DNA of 35,770 nt from Methanobacteriota archaeon (lineage in GTDB: Archaea; Thermoplasmatota; Thermoplasmata; Methanomassiliicoccales; Methanomassiliicoccaceae): contig JAAYQQ010000051.1 in NCBI GenBank assembly GCA_012519255.1, positions 1 through 35,770 of the forward strand. Direction: 5' to 3'. How positions within the stretch are numbered: position 1 is the first letter of the stretch; the number at the start of each line of letters is the position of its first letter. Both the position numbers and the translations under genes were made by a program. Shown piece after piece: positions 5,719-35,770 of this stretch. The notes beneath the pieces were generated by a model. That model had not been told where the DNA came from. It worked only from the letters and a program-made list of their open reading frames with translations, and searched no databases.

Positions 5719-7143
5719 TCAGAACGAGAATAGACGCTTCTGGCACATCGCCGGCTTGGACGATGAGCCATCTTTGGCTTTTTTCATCTCGGGCTCCGGC
5801 GAAATGGACTTTTTCGACTGAGATGATGGATGTGTTGTCGACTTTTTTACACTGGCCATCACTCGTTTTACCGCCGCGCTGTCGATCTTAGCATCTAACA
5901 GGAAGGCGACCTCCTCCACATCCAGCTCTAGCTTGATGGTCATGTGGAGCCGGAACTCCTCATTATTCTGGAACATTTGCTTGAAGGGCGGCAGGAAATC
6001 CTGCCTTACTCCCGCAGCGGACATATGTATCATAGATCCCAGTTTAGAAGATATATTCGCCTGGAGAGCGCGGTTCCCCTTACTGCGGGACATACGAATA
6101 AGGTACGAGGGGAAGTTATAACGCACATAGCCGCGGACATCCCTCTGCTTGGCCGCGCAGACGGCAAAACTGAGGAAGTCGTTGGCATAGGACCAGAATC
6201 CATAATGCTGCCTCCTGTAGACGCGTCCAAGAAAGTTATCGGCACGAGCCACAGCCTTCATTCCTCGATATAGATCAAGATTGTCTCGATACGCATTGGG
6301 TAAGTTCTCATCTATCCAGAGAAGTTTTGTATCGGGCGTCTCGTCCACCTCTAGAAGGGCTTTGCGAGCAAGGATGGGGTCACGGGATTTGAATATGTCA
6401 TCCATGACCTGGAACATGGTCTGTTCGACCTCTCTGAAGCCCACTACCGCGGCCTGATCCTCATCCACTTCCTGCTTCCCCATGGCAACAGCCTGGAGGT
6501 CCCTAATGGCGGAGCGAAGGTCGCCATTGCTATTTTCGGATAATACCCTGAGGGCCTGGTCGGTTATCTTGATCCCACGGTCCTTGGAGATGCGTCTCAG
6601 GACCCCTCTCACGGTGACGGTCCTAATGCGGTTGAACTTGATCTGCTGTGTCCCGGATTTAAGAGCAGAGCTCTTCCTGCTCAGCGCGTACCAGTCGTTG
6701 ACTATGAGGATCACTGGCTGCTTGGTCGAACGGACCACCTCGGCGATGGCGGGTATTCCACCACGATCTTCTCTTCCGCTGATGTTGTCCGCCTCGTCCA
6801 GGACGATGAGTTTGAGATTGCCTTCCTTGCTGGAGAGATACTCGCCATCCTCGGAGAAGGTCTCTCCAAGAGCGCCTCGCAGAGCTACCGCCTTGATGGC
6901 ATCAGCATTGCGCTGATCTGAGGCGTTCATCTCCACCACGTCCCAATTAAAGTCCGCAGCGAGAGCAAGAGCAGCACTGGTTTTTCCTGTGCCAGGGGAC
7001 CCCATGAGTACAGCAGCCTTCTTGATTGGTTTTCCGGCCACCCATGTTTGGGCCCATGCTCTCAGTTCCTGCACCGCCTTGGGATTGCCCACCACTTCAT
7101 CAAGTCCAGCAGGCCGATATGTCTCGGTCCAATCCTCACTCAT
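5719..7143 (-). CDS. rfcL: Replication factor C large subunit
   Basis: WTETYRPAGLDEVVGN, Walker A GSPGTGKTSAALALA, Walker B LIVLDEADNI; C-terminal PIP-like QKRLFSF. Confidence 0.95.
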   Translation of the reverse strand: MSEDWTETYRPAGLDEVVGNPKAVQELRAWAQTWVAGKPIKKAAVLMGSPGTGKTSAALALAADFNWDVVEMNASDQRNADAIKAVALRGALGETFSEDGEYLSSKEGNLKLIVLDEADNISGREDRGGIPAIAEVVRSTKQPVILIVNDWYALSRKSSALKSGTQQIKFNRIRTVTVRGVLRRISKDRGIKITDQALRVLSENSNGDLRSAIRDLQAVAMGKQEVDEDQAAVVGFREVEQTMFQVMDDIFKSRDPILARKALLEVDETPDTKLLWIDENLPNAYRDNLDLYRGMKAVARADNFLGRVYRRQHYGFWSYANDFLSFAVCAAKQRDVRGYVRYNFPSYLIRMSRSKGNRALQANISSKLGSMIHMSAAGVRQDFLPPFKQMFQNNEEFRLHMTIKLELDVEEVAFLLDAKIDSAAVKRVMASVKKSTTHPSSQSKKSISPEPEMKKAKDGSSSKPAMCQKRLFSF

Positions 7144-8124: not shown

Positions 8125-9240
8125 TTATTGGCCTTGATCGATGTCTTCGTCTCTAACCTTGGCCTTGGTGGTCCTGCCGACCTCTTCACTCTCCCTGATT
8201 TCCCGACCCATATCCTCCTCGAGTTGTTTTAGCTCGGCCCTGAGCTCGTCGTGCGAGGGGATCGGACCAAGGACATCCTCCGGTCGTCCCACTGCGGCCT
8301 CAATATCTTCGTGGTCAACAATTTCCCGCGGAGGAGTCTGACGGCCTACGCCCATGTATTCGGACATGCCCTCCATGACCTTGGTGACCTCGAAGGGGAC
8401 GATCCACTTTGTGCTATCAGATTGGCCTAACTTCTGCACGGTCTGCAGAGATAGAACCGTCAGTGCTTTGGAATCTAGTGGGGCCGCGCCTACCGACAAT
8501 ATGCGTAACTTCTGCGCCTCACCCTGGCTCTGCAGGATGATTGCCAGCCGCTCGCCCTCGGCCTCAACGACCTTTGACTGTCGGACACCCTCAGCCTGTA
8601 GGATGCGGGCCCTCTTGCTACCTTCAGCAGTTAGGATTGCCGCGCGCTTCTCACCATCGGCCCGCAGGATGGCGGCTCGCCTGAGCCTCTCCGCAGAGGT
8701 CTGCTCTTCCATGGCCTGCTTGACCTTGGGGGCAGGGTCAACCTCACGGATCTCCACTGCCTCTGCCCTAACGCCCCATTTGTCTGTGGCATCATCCAGG
8801 ATATCGCGCAGGCGTAGATTGATCTTATCCCGAGAGGAAAGGATCTCATCTAGTTCCATGTCGCCGATGATCGCCCTTAGTGTGGTCTGGGCCAGATACA
8901 CCGTGGCAGCACGATAGTTGGTCACCTCGAAGTACGCCTTCTTGGGATCGACCACCTTGATGTATATGATGGCGTCCACGTGCGTAGGGGAGTTATCTTT
9001 GGTAATAACTTCCTGACTTGGGACCTCCAGCACCTGTGTCCTCAGGTCTAGCGTGGTCACCTCACTTATCAGGGGATAAACATAATTGAAGCCGGGGTTC
9101 AGCGTTCTCTTGTACGTACCTAGCACGACATATATTGCCTGCTCGTACGGCTTGATGATCCTGATTCCCGTCACCAAGATGGCGACCACCGCGATGATGG
9201 CGAATAACAGGAGCGCAATCGTTATTGGATCTATTTCCAT
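8125..9240 (-). CDS. Slipin/stomatin-family SPFH (Band 7) membrane protein
   Basis: N-terminal TM then RIIKPYEQAIYVVLGTYKRTLNPGFNYVYPLISEVTTLDLRTQVLEVPSQEVITKDN; A/E/R-rich 'ERLRRAAILRADGEKRAAILTAEG'. Confidence 0.95.
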   Translation of the reverse strand: MEIDPITIALLLFAIIAVVAILVTGIRIIKPYEQAIYVVLGTYKRTLNPGFNYVYPLISEVTTLDLRTQVLEVPSQEVITKDNSPTHVDAIIYIKVVDPKKAYFEVTNYRAATVYLAQTTLRAIIGDMELDEILSSRDKINLRLRDILDDATDKWGVRAEAVEIREVDPAPKVKQAMEEQTSAERLRRAAILRADGEKRAAILTAEGSKRARILQAEGVRQSKVVEAEGERLAIILQSQGEAQKLRILSVGAAPLDSKALTVLSLQTVQKLGQSDSTKWIVPFEVTKVMEGMSEYMGVGRQTPPREIVDHEDIEAAVGRPEDVLGPIPSHDELRAELKQLEEDMGREIRESEEVGRTTKAKVRDEDIDQGQ

Positions 9241-9252
9241 TCTATAACCTCC

Positions 9253-9726
9253 TTACATGCATTCTAGGGATGTTGACATCTGGTCGATGACTTCCACCCT
9301 TACATGGACGCCTTCGCTGTGCACCACTTTTACTCGGTACCCCACGGGGATGATCTTGTCGGCAGTGGCGCTCCAGACATCGCTCTCGATCTTAACCTTG
9401 CCTTTCAAGCTGTTCGGACAGACTTCTCTTACCACCATACCCTCCCGTCCAATAAGGGATGAGGCCACCGTGGTGGTGGGGGGCTCAGGTGGAGATAGCT
9501 TCTGATACATCTTGACAGTGAGCAGAGTCGTAGGCACGAGAATGATGATGGCAATGATCGGAGACCATATGCTAAGCAGTAACTCAGGAGCGAGCATGCC
9601 AATGACTCCCAAGACTATCAGCACCGTTGCCGGTACGATTATGAAAGAGCCAGGCGTCGATGCCTCGATTAGGAGCATGATCACTCCGATGATAATTAAT
9701 ATGAGCCCAAGTTCCGCTCCGGTCAT
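9253..9726 (-). CDS. NfeD-family membrane protein (short form with C-terminal OB domain)
   Basis: TM segments then 'SSLIGREGMVVREVCPNSLKGKVKIESDVWSATADKIIPVGYRVKVVHSEGVHVRVE'. The ORF track starts at 9780, but a TATA-like element at 9748-9759 lies inside that extension, so the ATG at 9726 (MTGAELGLI) is the likelier start. Confidence 0.88.
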   Translation of the reverse strand: MTGAELGLILIIIGVIMLLIEASTPGSFIIVPATVLIVLGVIGMLAPELLLSIWSPIIAIIILVPTTLLTVKMYQKLSPPEPPTTTVASSLIGREGMVVREVCPNSLKGKVKIESDVWSATADKIIPVGYRVKVVHSEGVHVRVEVIDQMSTSLECM

Positions 9727-9747
9727 ATATAGTAGAGGCCCGAGGGA

Positions 9748-9759
9748 GTTTAAAAATAT
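9748..9759 (-). promoter_or_regulatory. TATA-like element for the nfeD-slipin pair
   Basis: minus strand ATATTTTTAAAC about 25 nt before ATG 9726; identical 12-mer at 13866-13877. Confidence 0.45.
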
Positions 9760-9832
9760 ATGCCAGTTAAAAAAGTCCATTAAGGCAAAATATGTCTAAA
9801 CTCCGCCGATGGGGGATATTTTGGAGATCGCT

Positions 9833-10426
9833 TCACACTGCCAGATGCAGTCCGGAGGGACTGGAAATAAAGGGCAGATAGATAACTTTGGCTTCCTGAA
9901 CCTCTAGATCATAATCCAGGTACTGTAGCGTCCCCGGCTTTTCTGCCTCCAATGTCACTGCTATGAAGTCAGCAAGTTCGATGGCTTCCTCTCGTCCAGT
10001 GGTCGCGGGCATCCGCTGGACGTCGGCAAAGTCATCTCTCACGCTATAGCGAGGATTGTTGACAGTGAGGTTTACAGACCAATAGCGGAAGACCGCAATG
10101 TCTAGATCGGAAGCGGGTACAAAGATGCGGAGCTGCCCACCATCATCGCCGCCCTTGAGGGCATTGGAAAGCTTGTGAAGATATCCTCCCTCCACGCTAC
10201 GCGATTTAATCTGAAAATCACATTGTAGTCGCCAGAAGGGGATATAGTGGCAGTCATCCAGCGGAGTGCCAGGCCTAAAGTTGGCAATCTCATATGGTAT
10301 CCTCTCCACGCCATGAATACCGCGGACATGGATCGTCCCGCAGCTTGAGCAGTAGAAGAAGTCATCCTTCTGCCTCATGTAGATAGGCAGATCGCACTGT
10401 GGGCACTTGACCTGTGTAACCTTCAC
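9833..10426 (-). CDS. TFIIB-type zinc-ribbon protein without an obvious TM segment (third paralogue)
   Basis: CPQCDLPIYMRQKDDFFYCSSC; 'YIPFWRLQCDF'; GTG start overlapping the previous stop (GTGA). Confidence 0.85.
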   Translation of the reverse strand: MKVTQVKCPQCDLPIYMRQKDDFFYCSSCGTIHVRGIHGVERIPYEIANFRPGTPLDDCHYIPFWRLQCDFQIKSRSVEGGYLHKLSNALKGGDDGGQLRIFVPASDLDIAVFRYWSVNLTVNNPRYSVRDDFADVQRMPATTGREEAIELADFIAVTLEAEKPGTLQYLDYDLEVQEAKVIYLPFISSPSGLHLAV

Positions 10427-11424
10427 CTGTACGCCTCCTGGATAAGCTTACCGACATCCTGCATGTCCCTGATTCCGGGCATCTTCTTCTTGTCGGGAAA
10501 ATCTCCCTGCACTATCTCTGATCCGTGACGGAAGAACCAGTAGGTTGCGCCGAGAGCAAGTATGCCAAAGATTATGCCAGCGATTCCAAGCTCAGTGCCA
10601 AACTCGGCCAATGCAATTATGCCTCCAGCGGCGGCGATGCCCCCCACGGAGGTGCCGGCGGTGACGGCGAGGCTCTGGAACAATGGGTCCCCAGGCGCAC
10701 GCCCGCTGAGTACCTGACCCGTGACTCCGTCTACGGTGCATATGTACATACGCTGTTGGTAATCATAACGGATGACCCATACGGGGTAGTATATCATACT
10801 CATCTTGCGCACAAGCACGTGCAGGCGCTCGAATGTGATGTTGGGGATGTTGGTGCTGGCTCGCCCTCTAGCCATGGAATCAAAACGAGCATGCTCAACG
10901 GCGTCGTCGCGGCTGGTGGTCGATTCGAATGTAGGGATCATATCGAGATCCTCAAAGGAGGCTTTACCGTCGAAGTTGTTCATCGATCGTAATCCCAGAT
11001 CTCCGGGATCACAGGCGATCTCCGAGAAAGTAACATCTTGAAGAACCATTTCTTCCTTGTATTCTCTCTCCGTCCGGGTGTGCCCCTTGGAGTCGGTATA
11101 TGTCCGCTCTTCGTAACCGCAGACCCATCCCGCTACACGAGTCCCTATGCTCCAGAAAGGGAGATAGATGGGATAGATCTCGGTGATCGTACCAACGTGC
11201 CTGAGATCCCTTGCCTTGAAGCCCTTCTTCCACCATTCCTTCACGGCATTGGTGGCAACATCTCGAGTGATATTATTCTTGAAAGCAATGGTAGAGACTC
11301 CCTGATCTCCCTCCACATAAAGCGTGGAGCCGCAATACCTGCAGTTGATCGAGCGGTCCCCATCCATTACCGTTATGGCGCCACCGCAGGTTGGACAGTT
11401 CAACCCAACCGATAAATTGCTCAT
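10423..11424 (-). CDS. TFIIB-type zinc-ribbon membrane protein (second paralogue)
   Basis: CPTCGGAITVMDGDRSINCRYCGSTLYVE; 'PIYLPFWSIGTRVAGWVCGYEERTYTD'; 'IYYPVWVIRYDY'; C-terminal TM hairpin. ATG at 11424 directly follows the upstream TAG. Confidence 0.87.
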   Translation of the reverse strand: MSNLSVGLNCPTCGGAITVMDGDRSINCRYCGSTLYVEGDQGVSTIAFKNNITRDVATNAVKEWWKKGFKARDLRHVGTITEIYPIYLPFWSIGTRVAGWVCGYEERTYTDSKGHTRTEREYKEEMVLQDVTFSEIACDPGDLGLRSMNNFDGKASFEDLDMIPTFESTTSRDDAVEHARFDSMARGRASTNIPNITFERLHVLVRKMSMIYYPVWVIRYDYQQRMYICTVDGVTGQVLSGRAPGDPLFQSLAVTAGTSVGGIAAAGGIIALAEFGTELGIAGIIFGILALGATYWFFRHGSEIVQGDFPDKKKMPGIRDMQDVGKLIQEAYR

Positions 11425-11425
11425 C

Positions 11426-12169
11426 CTAAAGCCTCCTGGCCACAAATAGTGAGGACGCCAACACGGCCACCACCGTTATGCCCATGAGCACGAGCGCAAG
11501 AAAGAGGTTCATCGTCGCCACCAGTCCTTCTGCCACGAAGGCAAGGAAACCGAGGATGGCCACGGCGAGGTAGGCCGTCGAGCCGCGGGCGGGGAAGATA
11601 GAAGCGAAGACCTCGGAAGAGGAGGCATCCACGACCACCTGATAATCCTTTCCACCAAAAGTATAATCTATCGTCCAGATCGGGAAGAACACCAGGCTTT
11701 GTTCCTTTGCGGTTCCGGGAAGGGAGCTGAGGTAATGGGTCATGTCGATGTCGGGCTTGACCATCTCTGCACCATTGGTGTCAAAGGTAGCGTCGAATAT
11801 CTTGAGATCGCCTCCCGGTACCTTGAGTTGATGGAGTCCCGGAAGTATCGTCGAGCCCGCCGGTTCAATGATCACCTCTTCCTTGCCGTCTACATCCCGT
11901 CGAAATAGATATACTGGAAAATATCGCTTCTTTACCTTGCCGATCTGGGCAAGGCGGTCGAGATCCTTGGCCTTTGTGGATCCACCGGCCCATCGCTTGA
12001 ACGTCCCTATAGCGTCGCCTTCTGACAACTTGAATGGGATGGCATAATAGAAACCCGCCCCCGAGCGGTCGATGTAGATCTGAGAGTCACAATAACTACA
12101 CTTGACGAATCGAGTGCCAGCATCGAACTCTACCGGTGCGGCGCACTTGGGACATCTGATCTGAGCCAT
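11426..12169 (-). CDS. TFIIB-type zinc-ribbon membrane protein (first paralogue)
   Basis: CPKCAAPVEFDAGTRFVKCSYCDSQIYID; 'KRYFPVYLFRRDV'; 'LVFFPIWTIDYTFGGKDYQV'; two C-terminal TM segments. Confidence 0.87.
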   Translation of the reverse strand: MAQIRCPKCAAPVEFDAGTRFVKCSYCDSQIYIDRSGAGFYYAIPFKLSEGDAIGTFKRWAGGSTKAKDLDRLAQIGKVKKRYFPVYLFRRDVDGKEEVIIEPAGSTILPGLHQLKVPGGDLKIFDATFDTNGAEMVKPDIDMTHYLSSLPGTAKEQSLVFFPIWTIDYTFGGKDYQVVVDASSSEVFASIFPARGSTAYLAVAILGFLAFVAEGLVATMNLFLALVLMGITVVAVLASSLFVARRL

Positions 12170-12178
12170 GTGAGAGCC

Positions 12179-13300
12179 TCACTGAATGGGTTCCCCACAT
12201 TGGGGGCAGAACTTGCTAGATACGGGGACTTCTGCACCGCATTTGGAGCACTTTCTGTCTCCCAGGGGATTACCGCAGTCGGGACAGAATTTGGCGCCAC
12301 CTGGCACATTATTCCCACATTTGGAGCATTTCTTGTCGGGCTCGAACCTGGTGCCGCACTCTGAGCAGAACTTATTGGTGGGAGGGTTGACAGTGCCACA
12401 TTTGGGACACTTTGCAGAGGGGCCGAATGGCATGGCTCCCCCGCCAGCAGCCTGTTGTGACTGTCCCGCTGGGCGCATCTGATCGACCATGGTCCACCCC
12501 ATCCCTATGCCCGCACCGACCCCCACGCCGGCTCCGGCAGCCCCATTTGCAGGGTTACTGGCAGCCTCGCGCATGGCCTGCCCGGTCTGGTAACCCATGT
12601 AGCTGGTGCCCAGTACCTGCATGGAAGCGCGAGTGTCCACCGCCTTCTGGACCTCGTCAGGAAGAGAAATGTATAATCCAGAAATCTTGTCGATTCCTAC
12701 GCCATATAGATCGAAATGATCTCCACTCTTGGATAGAATGCCTTGTTCTATATTCATGAGGCTAGAAGCGAGATCAGCGACTCCCATACCCTGATCCTTC
12801 ATCTCACCAATGACGTTGTAGATCAGTACGATCATCTGTTCCTTGATACGCTCTTCTACCTCGGCGGAAGATGCATAGTTAAAGGTTCCGATGAACTGGT
12901 TAACAAAATTAGCGGGGGATGAGACCCTATAGCGGAACTCTCCGAATACACGCAGGTTCACCACGCCGAACTCCTTGTCTCGGAACTGATAGGGTTGCTT
13001 GGAGCCGAACTTCCCATCCAGGACACGCTTCTGTAAGTATATGACCTCAGCCTGCTGCCGCACCCCCGAAAGGAACTTGACTATGGGGGCGACGATTGGA
13101 TCATTGAGTGAGGTGAGTGCGTAACGATCGGGCCGGTCAAAGTAAGCTAGAACCTTTCCGTCACGATAGAAGACTGCGATCTCGTCCTCACGAACCACTA
13201 TGTTATCGTTGAGCTTGATGTTACGAGGGATGCGCCACATTATGTTGCCGCGCTTGTCCGCATCCTCCCACTTGAAAGTCTCCGCACCAATAATTGACAT
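12179..13300 (-). CDS. SPFH-domain protein with triple C-terminal zinc ribbons (YdjI/COG4260-like)
   Basis: 'MSIIGAETFKWEDADKRGNIMWRIPRNIKLNDNIVVREDEIAVFYRDGKVLAYFDRPDRYALTSLNDPIV'; Gly/Ala-rich linker; CPKC..CSEC, CSKC..CPDC, CSKC..CPQC. Confidence 0.92.
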   Translation of the reverse strand: MSIIGAETFKWEDADKRGNIMWRIPRNIKLNDNIVVREDEIAVFYRDGKVLAYFDRPDRYALTSLNDPIVAPIVKFLSGVRQQAEVIYLQKRVLDGKFGSKQPYQFRDKEFGVVNLRVFGEFRYRVSSPANFVNQFIGTFNYASSAEVEERIKEQMIVLIYNVIGEMKDQGMGVADLASSLMNIEQGILSKSGDHFDLYGVGIDKISGLYISLPDEVQKAVDTRASMQVLGTSYMGYQTGQAMREAASNPANGAAGAGVGVGAGIGMGWTMVDQMRPAGQSQQAAGGGAMPFGPSAKCPKCGTVNPPTNKFCSECGTRFEPDKKCSKCGNNVPGGAKFCPDCGNPLGDRKCSKCGAEVPVSSKFCPQCGEPIQ

Positions 13301-13302
13301 TC

Positions 13303-13833
13303 TTACACCTCTGTCCCAGTGATGAGCTTGAGACGCCTCTCAAACTGCATCTCGAAATTGTTGATAAGCGTTCTCATCTGAAGGATGTCATTCTGGGCCT
13401 GAGCACCTTCTCTGGAGATCAGCGAGCTCCTGATATTGTCAACGCTGGAGTGCATATCATTGAGCATATCAAGCATGTTGGCGTCGTGATCATAAAGGCG
13501 ATAGATCTCATCCTCCTTGACCTCAATATCGGCGACGAAACCCGAGTAGCCAGTCTCGGCGTGAAGCACCTTGCCCTCTACCTTCTTCAACTGGGCAATG
13601 ACTCCGCCCATAAGCTCAAGCTCCCTGGAATTCCATCCTCCCGCCACGAGAGAACGAGAATCCTCTAACGCCTTGCGGACCTTACCAAGCTCCTGAGCGA
13701 TTTGGGAACGGAGCATGCGGTCGGCATCGCGGAGATCCTCCCTCTTCCTGTAGCCTCTGAAGCCGGGGACAAAATTTTGGATCCTCTTCAGGACGCCCTG
13801 GTCCTCTTGAACCCTCTGGCGGATGTCTGGCAT
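13303..13833 (-). CDS. Helical/coiled-coil protein of unknown function, first gene of the SPFH/zinc-ribbon operon
   Basis: 176 aa, 'NFVPGFRGYRKREDLRDADRMLRSQIAQEL...', predicted largely helical by eye; 2 nt from the SPFH gene. Confidence 0.85.
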   Translation of the reverse strand: MPDIRQRVQEDQGVLKRIQNFVPGFRGYRKREDLRDADRMLRSQIAQELGKVRKALEDSRSLVAGGWNSRELELMGGVIAQLKKVEGKVLHAETGYSGFVADIEVKEDEIYRLYDHDANMLDMLNDMHSSVDNIRSSLISREGAQAQNDILQMRTLINNFEMQFERRLKLITGTEV

Positions 13834-13865
13834 TTGGAATCCTCAACCTCATATCGATGTCTTAG

Positions 13866-13877
13866 GTTTAAAAATAT
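13866..13877 (-). promoter_or_regulatory. TATA-like element for the SPFH/zinc-ribbon operon
   Basis: minus strand ATATTTTTAAAC 33-44 nt before ATG 13833. Confidence 0.45.
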
Positions 13878-14094
13878 CGAGGTGCATGACGTCAATATTG
13901 TTTTACGCACCACTGCTCATCCTTAGAATGAAGTTATACTGTTTGGCACGTCCAGCATATATTAGAGATGTTGGGCGTTCTGAGCTCCCTCAATAATATA
14001 TTGCAGGGACCTTCCCAACCCATTACGCAGAGGAACTCGGCGATATGTTATTTGAACATGTGATTCACTTAATCTAAACAATCGGTTGGTCATC

Positions 14095-34027: not shown

Positions 34028-34804
34028 TCAACTGATCAGAGAGCGGAGGGCCCTGTCCAGACCGGGCACGGTCCTCAGCTCATCCAGCTGTTCGGGGCGC
34101 ACCCACTTGTGCTCGGTATGCTCCCAATCCAGCTGGACCTGACGCTCCCGAGCCTGGAATAGGAATGGATGAATTGTCCAGATGACGTTTCCATCTCTCA
34201 CCCGCATGGTCGGCGCTGAGGCGATCAGCTCAGGATCATCTATGCTCAGCTCCTCCCGGATCTCCTTGAGCGCTGTTTCCTGAGCGGTGTCTCCATCCTC
34301 AATATGTCCGCTCACTCCGGCCCAATGTCTCTGGAAGGTGCCTACCTTATCGCTGCGTTTCAGTACCAGGATATCTTCCCCATGGCGGAGGAAACAAGTG
34401 ACCACCTCTATCTCCCTAACATCGGGCAGCTCCACTGTTCCAGCGGTGCCGTCAACCACGCAGGTATCGCCCGGACGTAATAATTCTAAATCGATGTGAT
34501 CGACCAGGGGGACGCCGGACATGACCGCGCCTGTAGCCACGATCGGTTCGACCGACGAGTTGATTATGGCAGCGGGCAACGTACCCACCCGTTCCATCTC
34601 CAGCAACACGTACGAACCAACAGTGCTTCCCTTCCCACAAGGGAAAGCGAAGACCGCGCCCTTGATAGACTGGCCGTTGAACGCCTTGTCCGTCAGCACG
34701 CCAGTTGACGGCGCCACGTCACCGAGGAAGCTGACGGGCGAGGAAGAGAGTATGATCTTGTCGCCTGCCCGTCCACGAGATATGCCCCGTCCTCTCAGAA
34801 TCAT
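34028..34804 (-). CDS. Fusion: aconitase-X small subunit/DUF126 swivel domain + C-terminal Nudix hydrolase domain
   Basis: N-terminal 'RGRGISRGRAGDKIILSSSPVSFLGDVAPSTGVLTDKAFNGQSIKGAVFAFPCGKGSTVGSYVLLEM'; C-terminal Nudix box GHIEDGDTAQETALKEIREELSI; ATGA overlap with the upstream large-subunit gene. Confidence 0.88.
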   Translation of the reverse strand: MILRGRGISRGRAGDKIILSSSPVSFLGDVAPSTGVLTDKAFNGQSIKGAVFAFPCGKGSTVGSYVLLEMERVGTLPAAIINSSVEPIVATGAVMSGVPLVDHIDLELLRPGDTCVVDGTAGTVELPDVREIEVVTCFLRHGEDILVLKRSDKVGTFQRHWAGVSGHIEDGDTAQETALKEIREELSIDDPELIASAPTMRVRDGNVIWTIHPFLFQARERQVQLDWEHTEHKWVRPEQLDELRTVPGLDRALRSLIS

Positions 34805-35770
34805 GAGATCATCTCCACAAGCTCTTCAGTATCACCAAACACGGACTTCTGAGCGCAGAGGGTGGGCAGATAGTTACAGGCCTTGCCTGAATTGGATGCG
34901 GTGCACCTGAACCTTTCCTCGATAGGCGTTACCACCATACATGTGTCGCACACCAGTTTTCCGAACCGCTCTAGCTCCTTGGCTTCTCGCGGACACTGAG
35001 AGAGGGTGTGTCGGGATGTACAGAACCATACTTCGGCATCGCCCTTACGCGTTCTACCCTTGAGCAAACGAGCAAGCTCTTGTATTTCGGCCACTGAAAG
35101 ATGAGGGCACCCAAAGGCGATGAGCTCGGGATCCTTTCCCGTACTCAGCATCTCTCTGGCCCTGTCCAGCTCGGCCTTGCCGATAGAGACCTTCTCCAAA
35201 CCAGTGAGGTCCGCCTCCGCGGCCTCGGGAGTGACACCTTCGACGTGGAACAATGCGACCGCTCCGGCGGCGGCCATGGCTGCGGCAAGAGTCTTAAGTT
35301 GTTCGATCGTTGGGCGGATGCCCCTGAAATAGGGGACACGATTGCCAACTATCAACCCGGCTGCCTGCCCCAGGAGAGAATAATTGACATTTTCTGCCTC
35401 TACCTCGATGATGACGGTGGGTCTCCTATTCTCATCGAGATGCAAACCATACTCTGGCGTCTTTCCAATGATGGCTGCGCACAGTGCGCCCGGTCCGCCT
35501 TCCCTATTGGTCCTTGCTCCAATCGCAGAGTTGGCAAAGCTAAGTGCACTGGATTCTGCCCAGGCAATGTGCTGTCCCTTCTTGGGGACGTTTGTACCAA
35601 GGTATGGAGTACAGGAGCAATCGGAAATGACGCCAAGTCGCTCATAGCAGTCAATGATGTGACGCTGCCGGTCGGCAAAGTGAGGGCGGATCCCCATCTC
35701 CTTCCACCGTTGACGATCCATTCCAGCTGGATTTAGTGTGGTGGGAACACATACAGCAGCATCCCTGCCC
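34801..35770 (-). CDS. Aconitase-X large subunit (DUF521; phosphomevalonate dehydratase large subunit-like), 5'-truncated by the window edge
   Basis: In-frame 'VPTTLNPAGMDRQRWKEMG' continues to the window edge; 'SDCSCTPYLGTNVPKKGQHIAWAESSALSFANSAIGARTNREGGP'; 'FGCPHLS', 'CDTCMVV'. Confidence 0.93.
   Translation of the reverse strand, partial: GRDAAVCVPTTLNPAGMDRQRWKEMGIRPHFADRQRHIIDCYERLGVISDCSCTPYLGTNVPKKGQHIAWAESSALSFANSAIGARTNREGGPGALCAAIIGKTPEYGLHLDENRRPTVIIEVEAENVNYSLLGQAAGLIVGNRVPYFRGIRPTIEQLKTLAAAMAAAGAVALFHVEGVTPEAAEADLTGLEKVSIGKAELDRAREMLSTGKDPELIAFGCPHLSVAEIQELARLLKGRTRKGDAEVWFCTSRHTLSQCPREAKELERFGKLVCDTCMVVTPIEERFRCTASNSGKACNYLPTLCAQKSVFGDTEELVEMIS

Follow-up and report, generated by a model that had tools for sequence, protein, structure and literature searches.

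A small helical protein encoded together with a zinc-ribbon SPFH protein in a conserved archaeal operon

The operon and its five proteins

The window analysed here, meaning the whole stretch of DNA, is a 35.8-kb contig (JAAYQQ010000051.1) of a methane-producing Methanomassiliicoccaceae archaeon whose genome comprises 1.75 Mb in 149 contigs, with a stated completeness of 97%. Its minus strand carries five open reading frames (ORFs) in the order HEL, SPFH, Z1, Z2, and Z3, where HEL is a helical protein, SPFH an SPFH protein, and Z1 to Z3 the zinc-ribbon proteins that follow it. The intergenic gaps are 2, 9, 1, and -4 nt (HEL/SPFH, SPFH/Z1, Z1/Z2, and Z2/Z3, respectively), and such small distances make co-transcription of SPFH, Z1, Z2, and Z3 very likely, with HEL only 2 nt ahead. 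A TATA-box-like element, GATATTTTTAAAC (~13866-13878, minus strand), is located upstream of HEL, at about the position where a T/A-rich block is present in aligned relatives as well, and is the probable single promoter of the operon. An earlier note on this DNA, made from the letters alone, had drawn the locus up to 13877, and the part beyond the HEL start corresponds to this promoter region. A scan for sigma-70 promoters and terminators remained near shuffle level, using models that are unsuited to archaea.

The first gene, HEL (13303..13833, minus strand), encodes a soluble, all-helical protein of 176 aa with conserved PG[YF]xGY and GYS loops. Its AlphaFold2 model (predicted local distance difference test, pLDDT, 85) consists of five helices at residues 4-21, 31-62, 70-90, 107-139, and 143-172. 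Nine residues (P23, G27, Y28, R35, D38, R42, G95, D117, and R167) are invariant in an alignment of 27 HEL sequences, and, as read from the order of the helices rather than from coordinates, they appear to cluster towards one end of the bundle as a candidate interface. The window protein has no informative Pfam match, its relatives have only scattered weak ones, and sequence searches of the PDB returned only designed and coiled-coil proteins. The NCBIfam model NF047596 (LIMLP_15305) matches all 27 aligned HELs over nearly their full length (best E-value 2.3e-20), including the window HEL at residues 6-170 (38.6 bits, E-value 9.8e-10), yet every score shown is under the curated cut-off of 210 bits. 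Judging from these matches, HEL is distantly related to the Leptospira family LIMLP_15305 and is not an equivalog.

The SPFH gene (12179..13300, minus strand) encodes 373 aa without a transmembrane (TM) segment. A Band_7_1 domain at ~23-229 (PF13421, E-value 1.2e-32; 113.7 bits versus a Pfam cut-off of 24) is followed by a Gly/Ala-rich segment at ~247-275 and by three C-terminal zinc ribbons of the double-CxxC type at 298-368 (DZR, 7.9e-23; six CxxC motifs at 298-365). The Gly/Ala-rich segment, which joins the SPFH domain to the ribbons, hardly varies in an alignment extended to bacterial relatives, and PF13421 also has matches in the B. subtilis genome.

Each of the three remaining proteins begins with a single CxxC...CxxC ribbon, and C-terminal TM hairpins are found in Z1 and Z2 only. 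Z1 (11426..12169, minus strand; 247 aa) has a beta domain with P-x-W motifs and a hairpin at ~194-247. Z2 (10423..11424, minus strand; 333 aa) has long antiparallel beta strands, a hairpin at 247-299, and a short C-terminal cytosolic helix, the strands and hairpin being seen in an AlphaFold2 model with a pLDDT of 85; its start is an ATG with a good Shine-Dalgarno sequence, whereas the mechanically called ORF begins upstream at a TTG. Z3 (9833..10426, minus strand; 197 aa, GTG start) is a soluble zinc-ribbon paralogue without a TM segment. Z1 and Z2 are homologous by BLASTP (3e-11), Z3 matches a Z1/Z2 profile by hhalign (97.7%, 1.3e-12), and the cysteines are invariant across the family. By sequence, Z1 to Z3 are thus best described as one diverged paralogous family, and the possibility that they are three unrelated proteins is ruled out by the BLASTP and hhalign results. 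PDB sequence searches with the Z profiles gave no match. The earlier note had correctly read the five closely spaced minus-strand genes, the 176-aa helical protein, and the SPFH protein ending in three zinc ribbons; its three zinc-ribbon proteins do have the N-terminal ribbon in each and hairpins in two, but they are homologous rather than distinct.

Linkage of HEL and SPFH across archaea

Across two archaeal phyla, the PF13421 SPFH gene is almost never found without HEL, which is its near-obligatory partner. Co-occurrence was counted in 155 genomes from the phylum of the window and in 247 genomes from the phylum of Methanocorpusculum petauri, with a HEL considered strong at an E-value below ~1e-35, a threshold fixed after the score distribution was seen. 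In the first sample, 44 genomes have a strong HEL, 46 a Band_7_1 SPFH, and 43 both (Fisher p 1.6e-33, uncorrected for shared ancestry), and HEL is directly beside SPFH in 42 of the 44. Two genomes stand apart in this respect: G249 has a Z-like gene between HEL and SPFH, and G206, which is 72% complete, has no SPFH match. In the second phylum the two sets coincide (14/14; p 4e-23, likewise uncorrected for ancestry), and all 15 HEL-SPFH pairs are adjacent, one genome carrying two. Similarly, HEL is present in 11 of 11 SPFH genomes of a sample from the order Methanosarcinales, which overlaps the second phylum sample in part. Among fetched loci, SPFH is directly downstream of 113 of the 115 HEL genes with room for it, at a median gap of 3 nt, although some of these loci were counted twice, as identical DNA present in two collections, and are not independent cases.

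Because other families of the order, and other archaeal classes too, share the complete gene order, the five-gene arrangement is not due to chance. Almost every genome of the Methanomassiliicoccales keeps Band_7_1 SPFH; within this order, families f1, f3, and f6 retain HEL-SPFH-Z1-Z2-Z3, and most genomes of the gut family f2 have HEL-SPFH with no Z genes at the locus, to which the search for Z in that family was confined. The same operon is present in other Thermoplasmata, Methanoperedens, and ANME-2. In Methanocorpusculum, several loci are ordered Z1-Z2-Z3-HEL-SPFH and others have divergent Z genes. One locus (L099) contains a second, diverged HEL at 5828-6376, ~1.2 kb downstream of a full HEL-SPFH-Z1-Z2-Z3 operon and without an SPFH of its own.

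Weaker HELs, below the threshold, number 11 in the window's phylum and one in the second phylum, and none of their genomes has Band_7_1. Six of the 11 loci were inspected. In five of them, from other Thermoplasmatota-type genomes, the gene after HEL codes for a ~400-aa protein that matches an SPFH profile (hhalign 93.6%, 2.1e-7), and four of these five SPFH-like proteins have a zinc ribbon at the end as read; at the sixth locus (L193), no neighbour was identified by ORF picking. The Methanosarcinales sample includes four lower-scoring HELs: G160 has the normal HEL-SPFH-Z-Z order, G114 has no recognised SPFH nearby, and in G088 and G152 (loci L175 and L176) a diverged HEL is followed by a coiled-coil protein of 335-398 aa and then by an SPFH protein with two N-terminal zinc ribbons and one C-terminal ribbon. 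Upstream at L175, and divergently oriented at L173, lies a gene whose product has an N-terminal part that, judged only by eye, looks similar to the adaptin-appendage-like regions in published archaeal ESCRT loci. Band_7_1 SPFH genes lacking HEL were seen at L041, L057, and L198 (genomes G015, G049, and G207, respectively), that of G049 accompanied by an opposite-strand Z-like gene; these may be a separate SPFH subgroup.

On the bacterial side, plasmids of Paracoccus, Comamonas, Vibrio, and Tsukamurella carry Band_7_1 SPFH genes followed by Z-family proteins (E-values 2e-25 to 3e-14 with profiles built from archaeal sequences only), these being the cases that were annotated or could be read in 25 plasmid records rather than a survey. 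The bacterial pairs are similar to the archaeal operon in that SPFH adjoins a Z-family homologue, and differ in that no HEL was seen in the four stretches. Searches of plasmids with HEL, and with Z2 as a single sequence by tblastn, yielded nothing useful. On the plasmid of Paracoccus ferrooxidans (L075), genes for TelA (toxic anion resistance, PF05816) and a DUF2927 protein are upstream of SPFH and the Z-family gene, and TelA might be a further helical protein filling the partner slot. On the plasmid of Vibrio coralliilyticus (L187), the pair is near genes encoding TIR-domain and TRAFs-binding-domain proteins.

Downstream of Z3 in the window, after 52 nt, are genes for an NfeD-like membrane protein (9253..9780, minus strand; PF01957, 5.1e-11) and its partner, a stomatin-type SPFH protein (8125..9240, minus strand; PF01145, 9.2e-42), such that two different SPFH proteins are encoded in tandem loci. 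This pair (8125-9780), which is possibly co-transcribed with the operon, is found at this position in the majority of genomes from the window's family and also in one genome of family f6. Elsewhere in the window, an aconitase-X swivel domain (PF01989) is fused to a NUDIX domain (34028-34804, minus strand), which is unusual; it adjoins the large part of aconitase-X (34801-35721), which may belong to a mevalonate-pathway dehydratase.

Comparison with PspA-YdjGHI and ESCRT loci

In B. subtilis, YdjI requires YdjG and YdjH for its membrane localisation and in turn recruits PspA, which requires it; YdjI has a low-complexity region and a zinc finger near its C-terminus and no TM anchor (PMC8581546). 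YdjH is a TPM-domain membrane protein, and YdjG combines a zinc ribbon, a YpeB-related domain, and a TM segment (PMC11237479). The window operon is similar in that its SPFH protein is also TM-less, with a low-complexity region and C-terminal zinc ribbons, in that a helical protein comes first, and in that zinc-ribbon/TM proteins are part of the operon. In contrast, its first gene encodes a HEL without detectable similarity to PspA, three paralogous Z proteins follow SPFH, and no YdjH-type TPM domain was found in Z1-Z3 by Pfam among the window proteins and the shown tables of relatives. A relation of the Z proteins to YdjG may exist; such a link is drawn from the described architecture of YdjG and from weak PepSY matches in a few Z-family members (best 0.0038).

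HEL was excluded as a PspA or ESCRT-III protein by Pfam, hhalign, and fold search. Like PspA, Vipp1, and ESCRT-III (PF04012 and PF03357), HEL is a small, all-helical soluble protein, and those proteins are SPFH-adjacent in some systems; unlike them, it has no similarity to these families by any of the three methods. The hhalign probability of HEL against archaeal PspA is 1.2% over 15 columns, with a PspA profile of only five similar sequences, whereas HEL aligns with a diverged HEL at 98.7% over 158 columns and the same PspA profile recovers Vipp1/PspA from the PDB at 1e-22. No PspA, Vipp1, or ESCRT-III is among the 50 fold matches listed for HEL. In the window genome, PF04012 finds nothing at E<=1, although the same search has matches in most control genomes, and Snf7 (PF03357) finds nothing at E<=0.1, in a less sensitive search in which the controls match only below the cut-off. 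True PspA is encoded at a separate locus in three of the 11 operon-bearing genomes outside the order (Methanoperedens and ANME-2), and because these genomes carry both, HEL is not a simple PspA substitute.

Consequently, the proposal of the earlier note that the helical protein replaces PspA is not supported in its simple form. Its broader proposal, an archaeal YdjFGHI-type module, survives in part: the SPFH family, the layout, and a gene order kept in other families and classes agree with it, but a PspA match and a TPM domain are lacking. The term "archaeal equivalent" is fair as a working analogy and is not a homology result.

Archaeal Meth_adaptin ESCRT loci include coiled-coil/zinc-ribbon SPFH proteins (PMC10936438). 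The resemblance lies in the presence of an archaeal zinc-ribbon SPFH in a predicted membrane-remodelling locus; the window operon differs in having no recognised Vps4, ESCRT-III, or adaptin-like gene, no search aimed at Vps4 having been made. A link to these loci is only suggested, by neighbours read in some Methanosarcinales loci.

Proposed function and its alternatives

We slightly favour a model in which the operon encodes one complex at the cytosolic face of the membrane, with HEL as its obligate partner and a function in maintenance under stress. The anchorless SPFH protein would act as an oligomeric scaffold, and Z1 and Z2, with their TM hairpins and cytosolic zinc-ribbon/beta domains, would form together with the soluble Z3 a receptor/adaptor set that tethers SPFH to the membrane. 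HEL, as a small helical bundle, would be the client or effector bound or positioned by SPFH, thereby taking the slot held by PspA beside YdjI in Bacillus with an unrelated protein. We infer the physical complex from the linkage, and the tethering and oligomerisation likewise. The most likely task would be upkeep of the membrane or of membrane proteins; the stress role comes from the Bacillus analogy alone, and stress induction and membrane repair are speculative.

Several observations weigh against this model. The co-occurrence p-values ignore phylogeny, and G015, G049, and G207 have SPFH without HEL, although in at least G049 and G207 the SPFH proteins are weaker-scoring variants. No stress regulator or promoter motif was found. 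A Foldseek search of the PDB with HEL gave no match at E<=0.001, and thus no solved relative, and the fold search with Z2 gave no meaningful match (best TM-scores ~0.1), leaving its beta domain without a solved relative as well.

SPFH proteins commonly corral membrane proteins in quality-control roles. Links between SPFH proteins and FtsH have been reviewed (PMC2636767). A general role of this kind fits nearly as well: like HflK/C or prohibitins, the SPFH ring would corral membrane proteins independently of envelope stress, and HEL would serve it as an adaptor or chaperone. This common mode of SPFH action and the NfeD-stomatin pair found downstream in the window's family are in its favour, but the conserved operon includes no protease or chaperone gene and only families f1 and f6 show the NfeD-stomatin neighbourhood, such that we regard a quality-control or assembly scaffold as a real but doubtful alternative. 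A little more doubtful is that HEL founds a family of archaeal proteins that remodel or seal membranes with the help of SPFH, by convergence with PspA/ESCRT-III; if so, membrane repair would depend on the HEL-SPFH-Z complex in archaea that, like this one, lack both PspA and ESCRT-III.

The idea that HEL is instead a divergent member of PspA/ESCRT-III, with a true PspA-YdjGHI homologue as its operon, would account for the shared SPFH family, the similar gene set, and the N-terminal helix followed by long helices. This is improbable and largely refuted by sequence, given the hhalign contrast and fold matches described above, the bundle-like lengths of the HEL helices, the missing TPM domain, and the coexistence of PspA elsewhere in some operon genomes. 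It is very improbable that the six ribbons (three in SPFH and one in each of Z1-Z3) act at the membrane as sensors of zinc or redox state: the density of zinc ribbons and the invariant cysteines of the Z family could be read in this way, but such ribbons are usually structural or protein-binding, and the conserved neighbourhood contains no metal transporter or metalloregulator. SPFH domains are also found in some conflict systems, and one bacterial SPFH-Z pair is beside a TIR-domain gene. Nevertheless, an antiviral function is the least probable of these explanations, as PADLOC gave no meaningful match for a defence system, viral contigs contained no HEL or SPFH relative with the patterns tried, and retention in nearly all genomes of the order by stable vertical inheritance argues against it.

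Returning to the membrane complex built on HEL and SPFH, their linkage points to a widespread and unstudied archaeal assembly; the open-access full-text literature that was searched contained no account of the pair, with subscription papers and databases such as arCOG outside the search. The comparisons suggest that the SPFH/zinc-ribbon core is ancient and that its helical partner varies, being PspA in Bacillus, TelA beside SPFH in Paracoccus, and HEL in archaea. SPFH proteins are ubiquitous, and what they act on is usually unclear. An archaeal SPFH subfamily with a single near-obligatory partner in two phyla would therefore offer a concrete, testable client or effector, to which the operon would add a four-protein receptor/scaffold set in organisms without detectable PspA and ESCRT-III.

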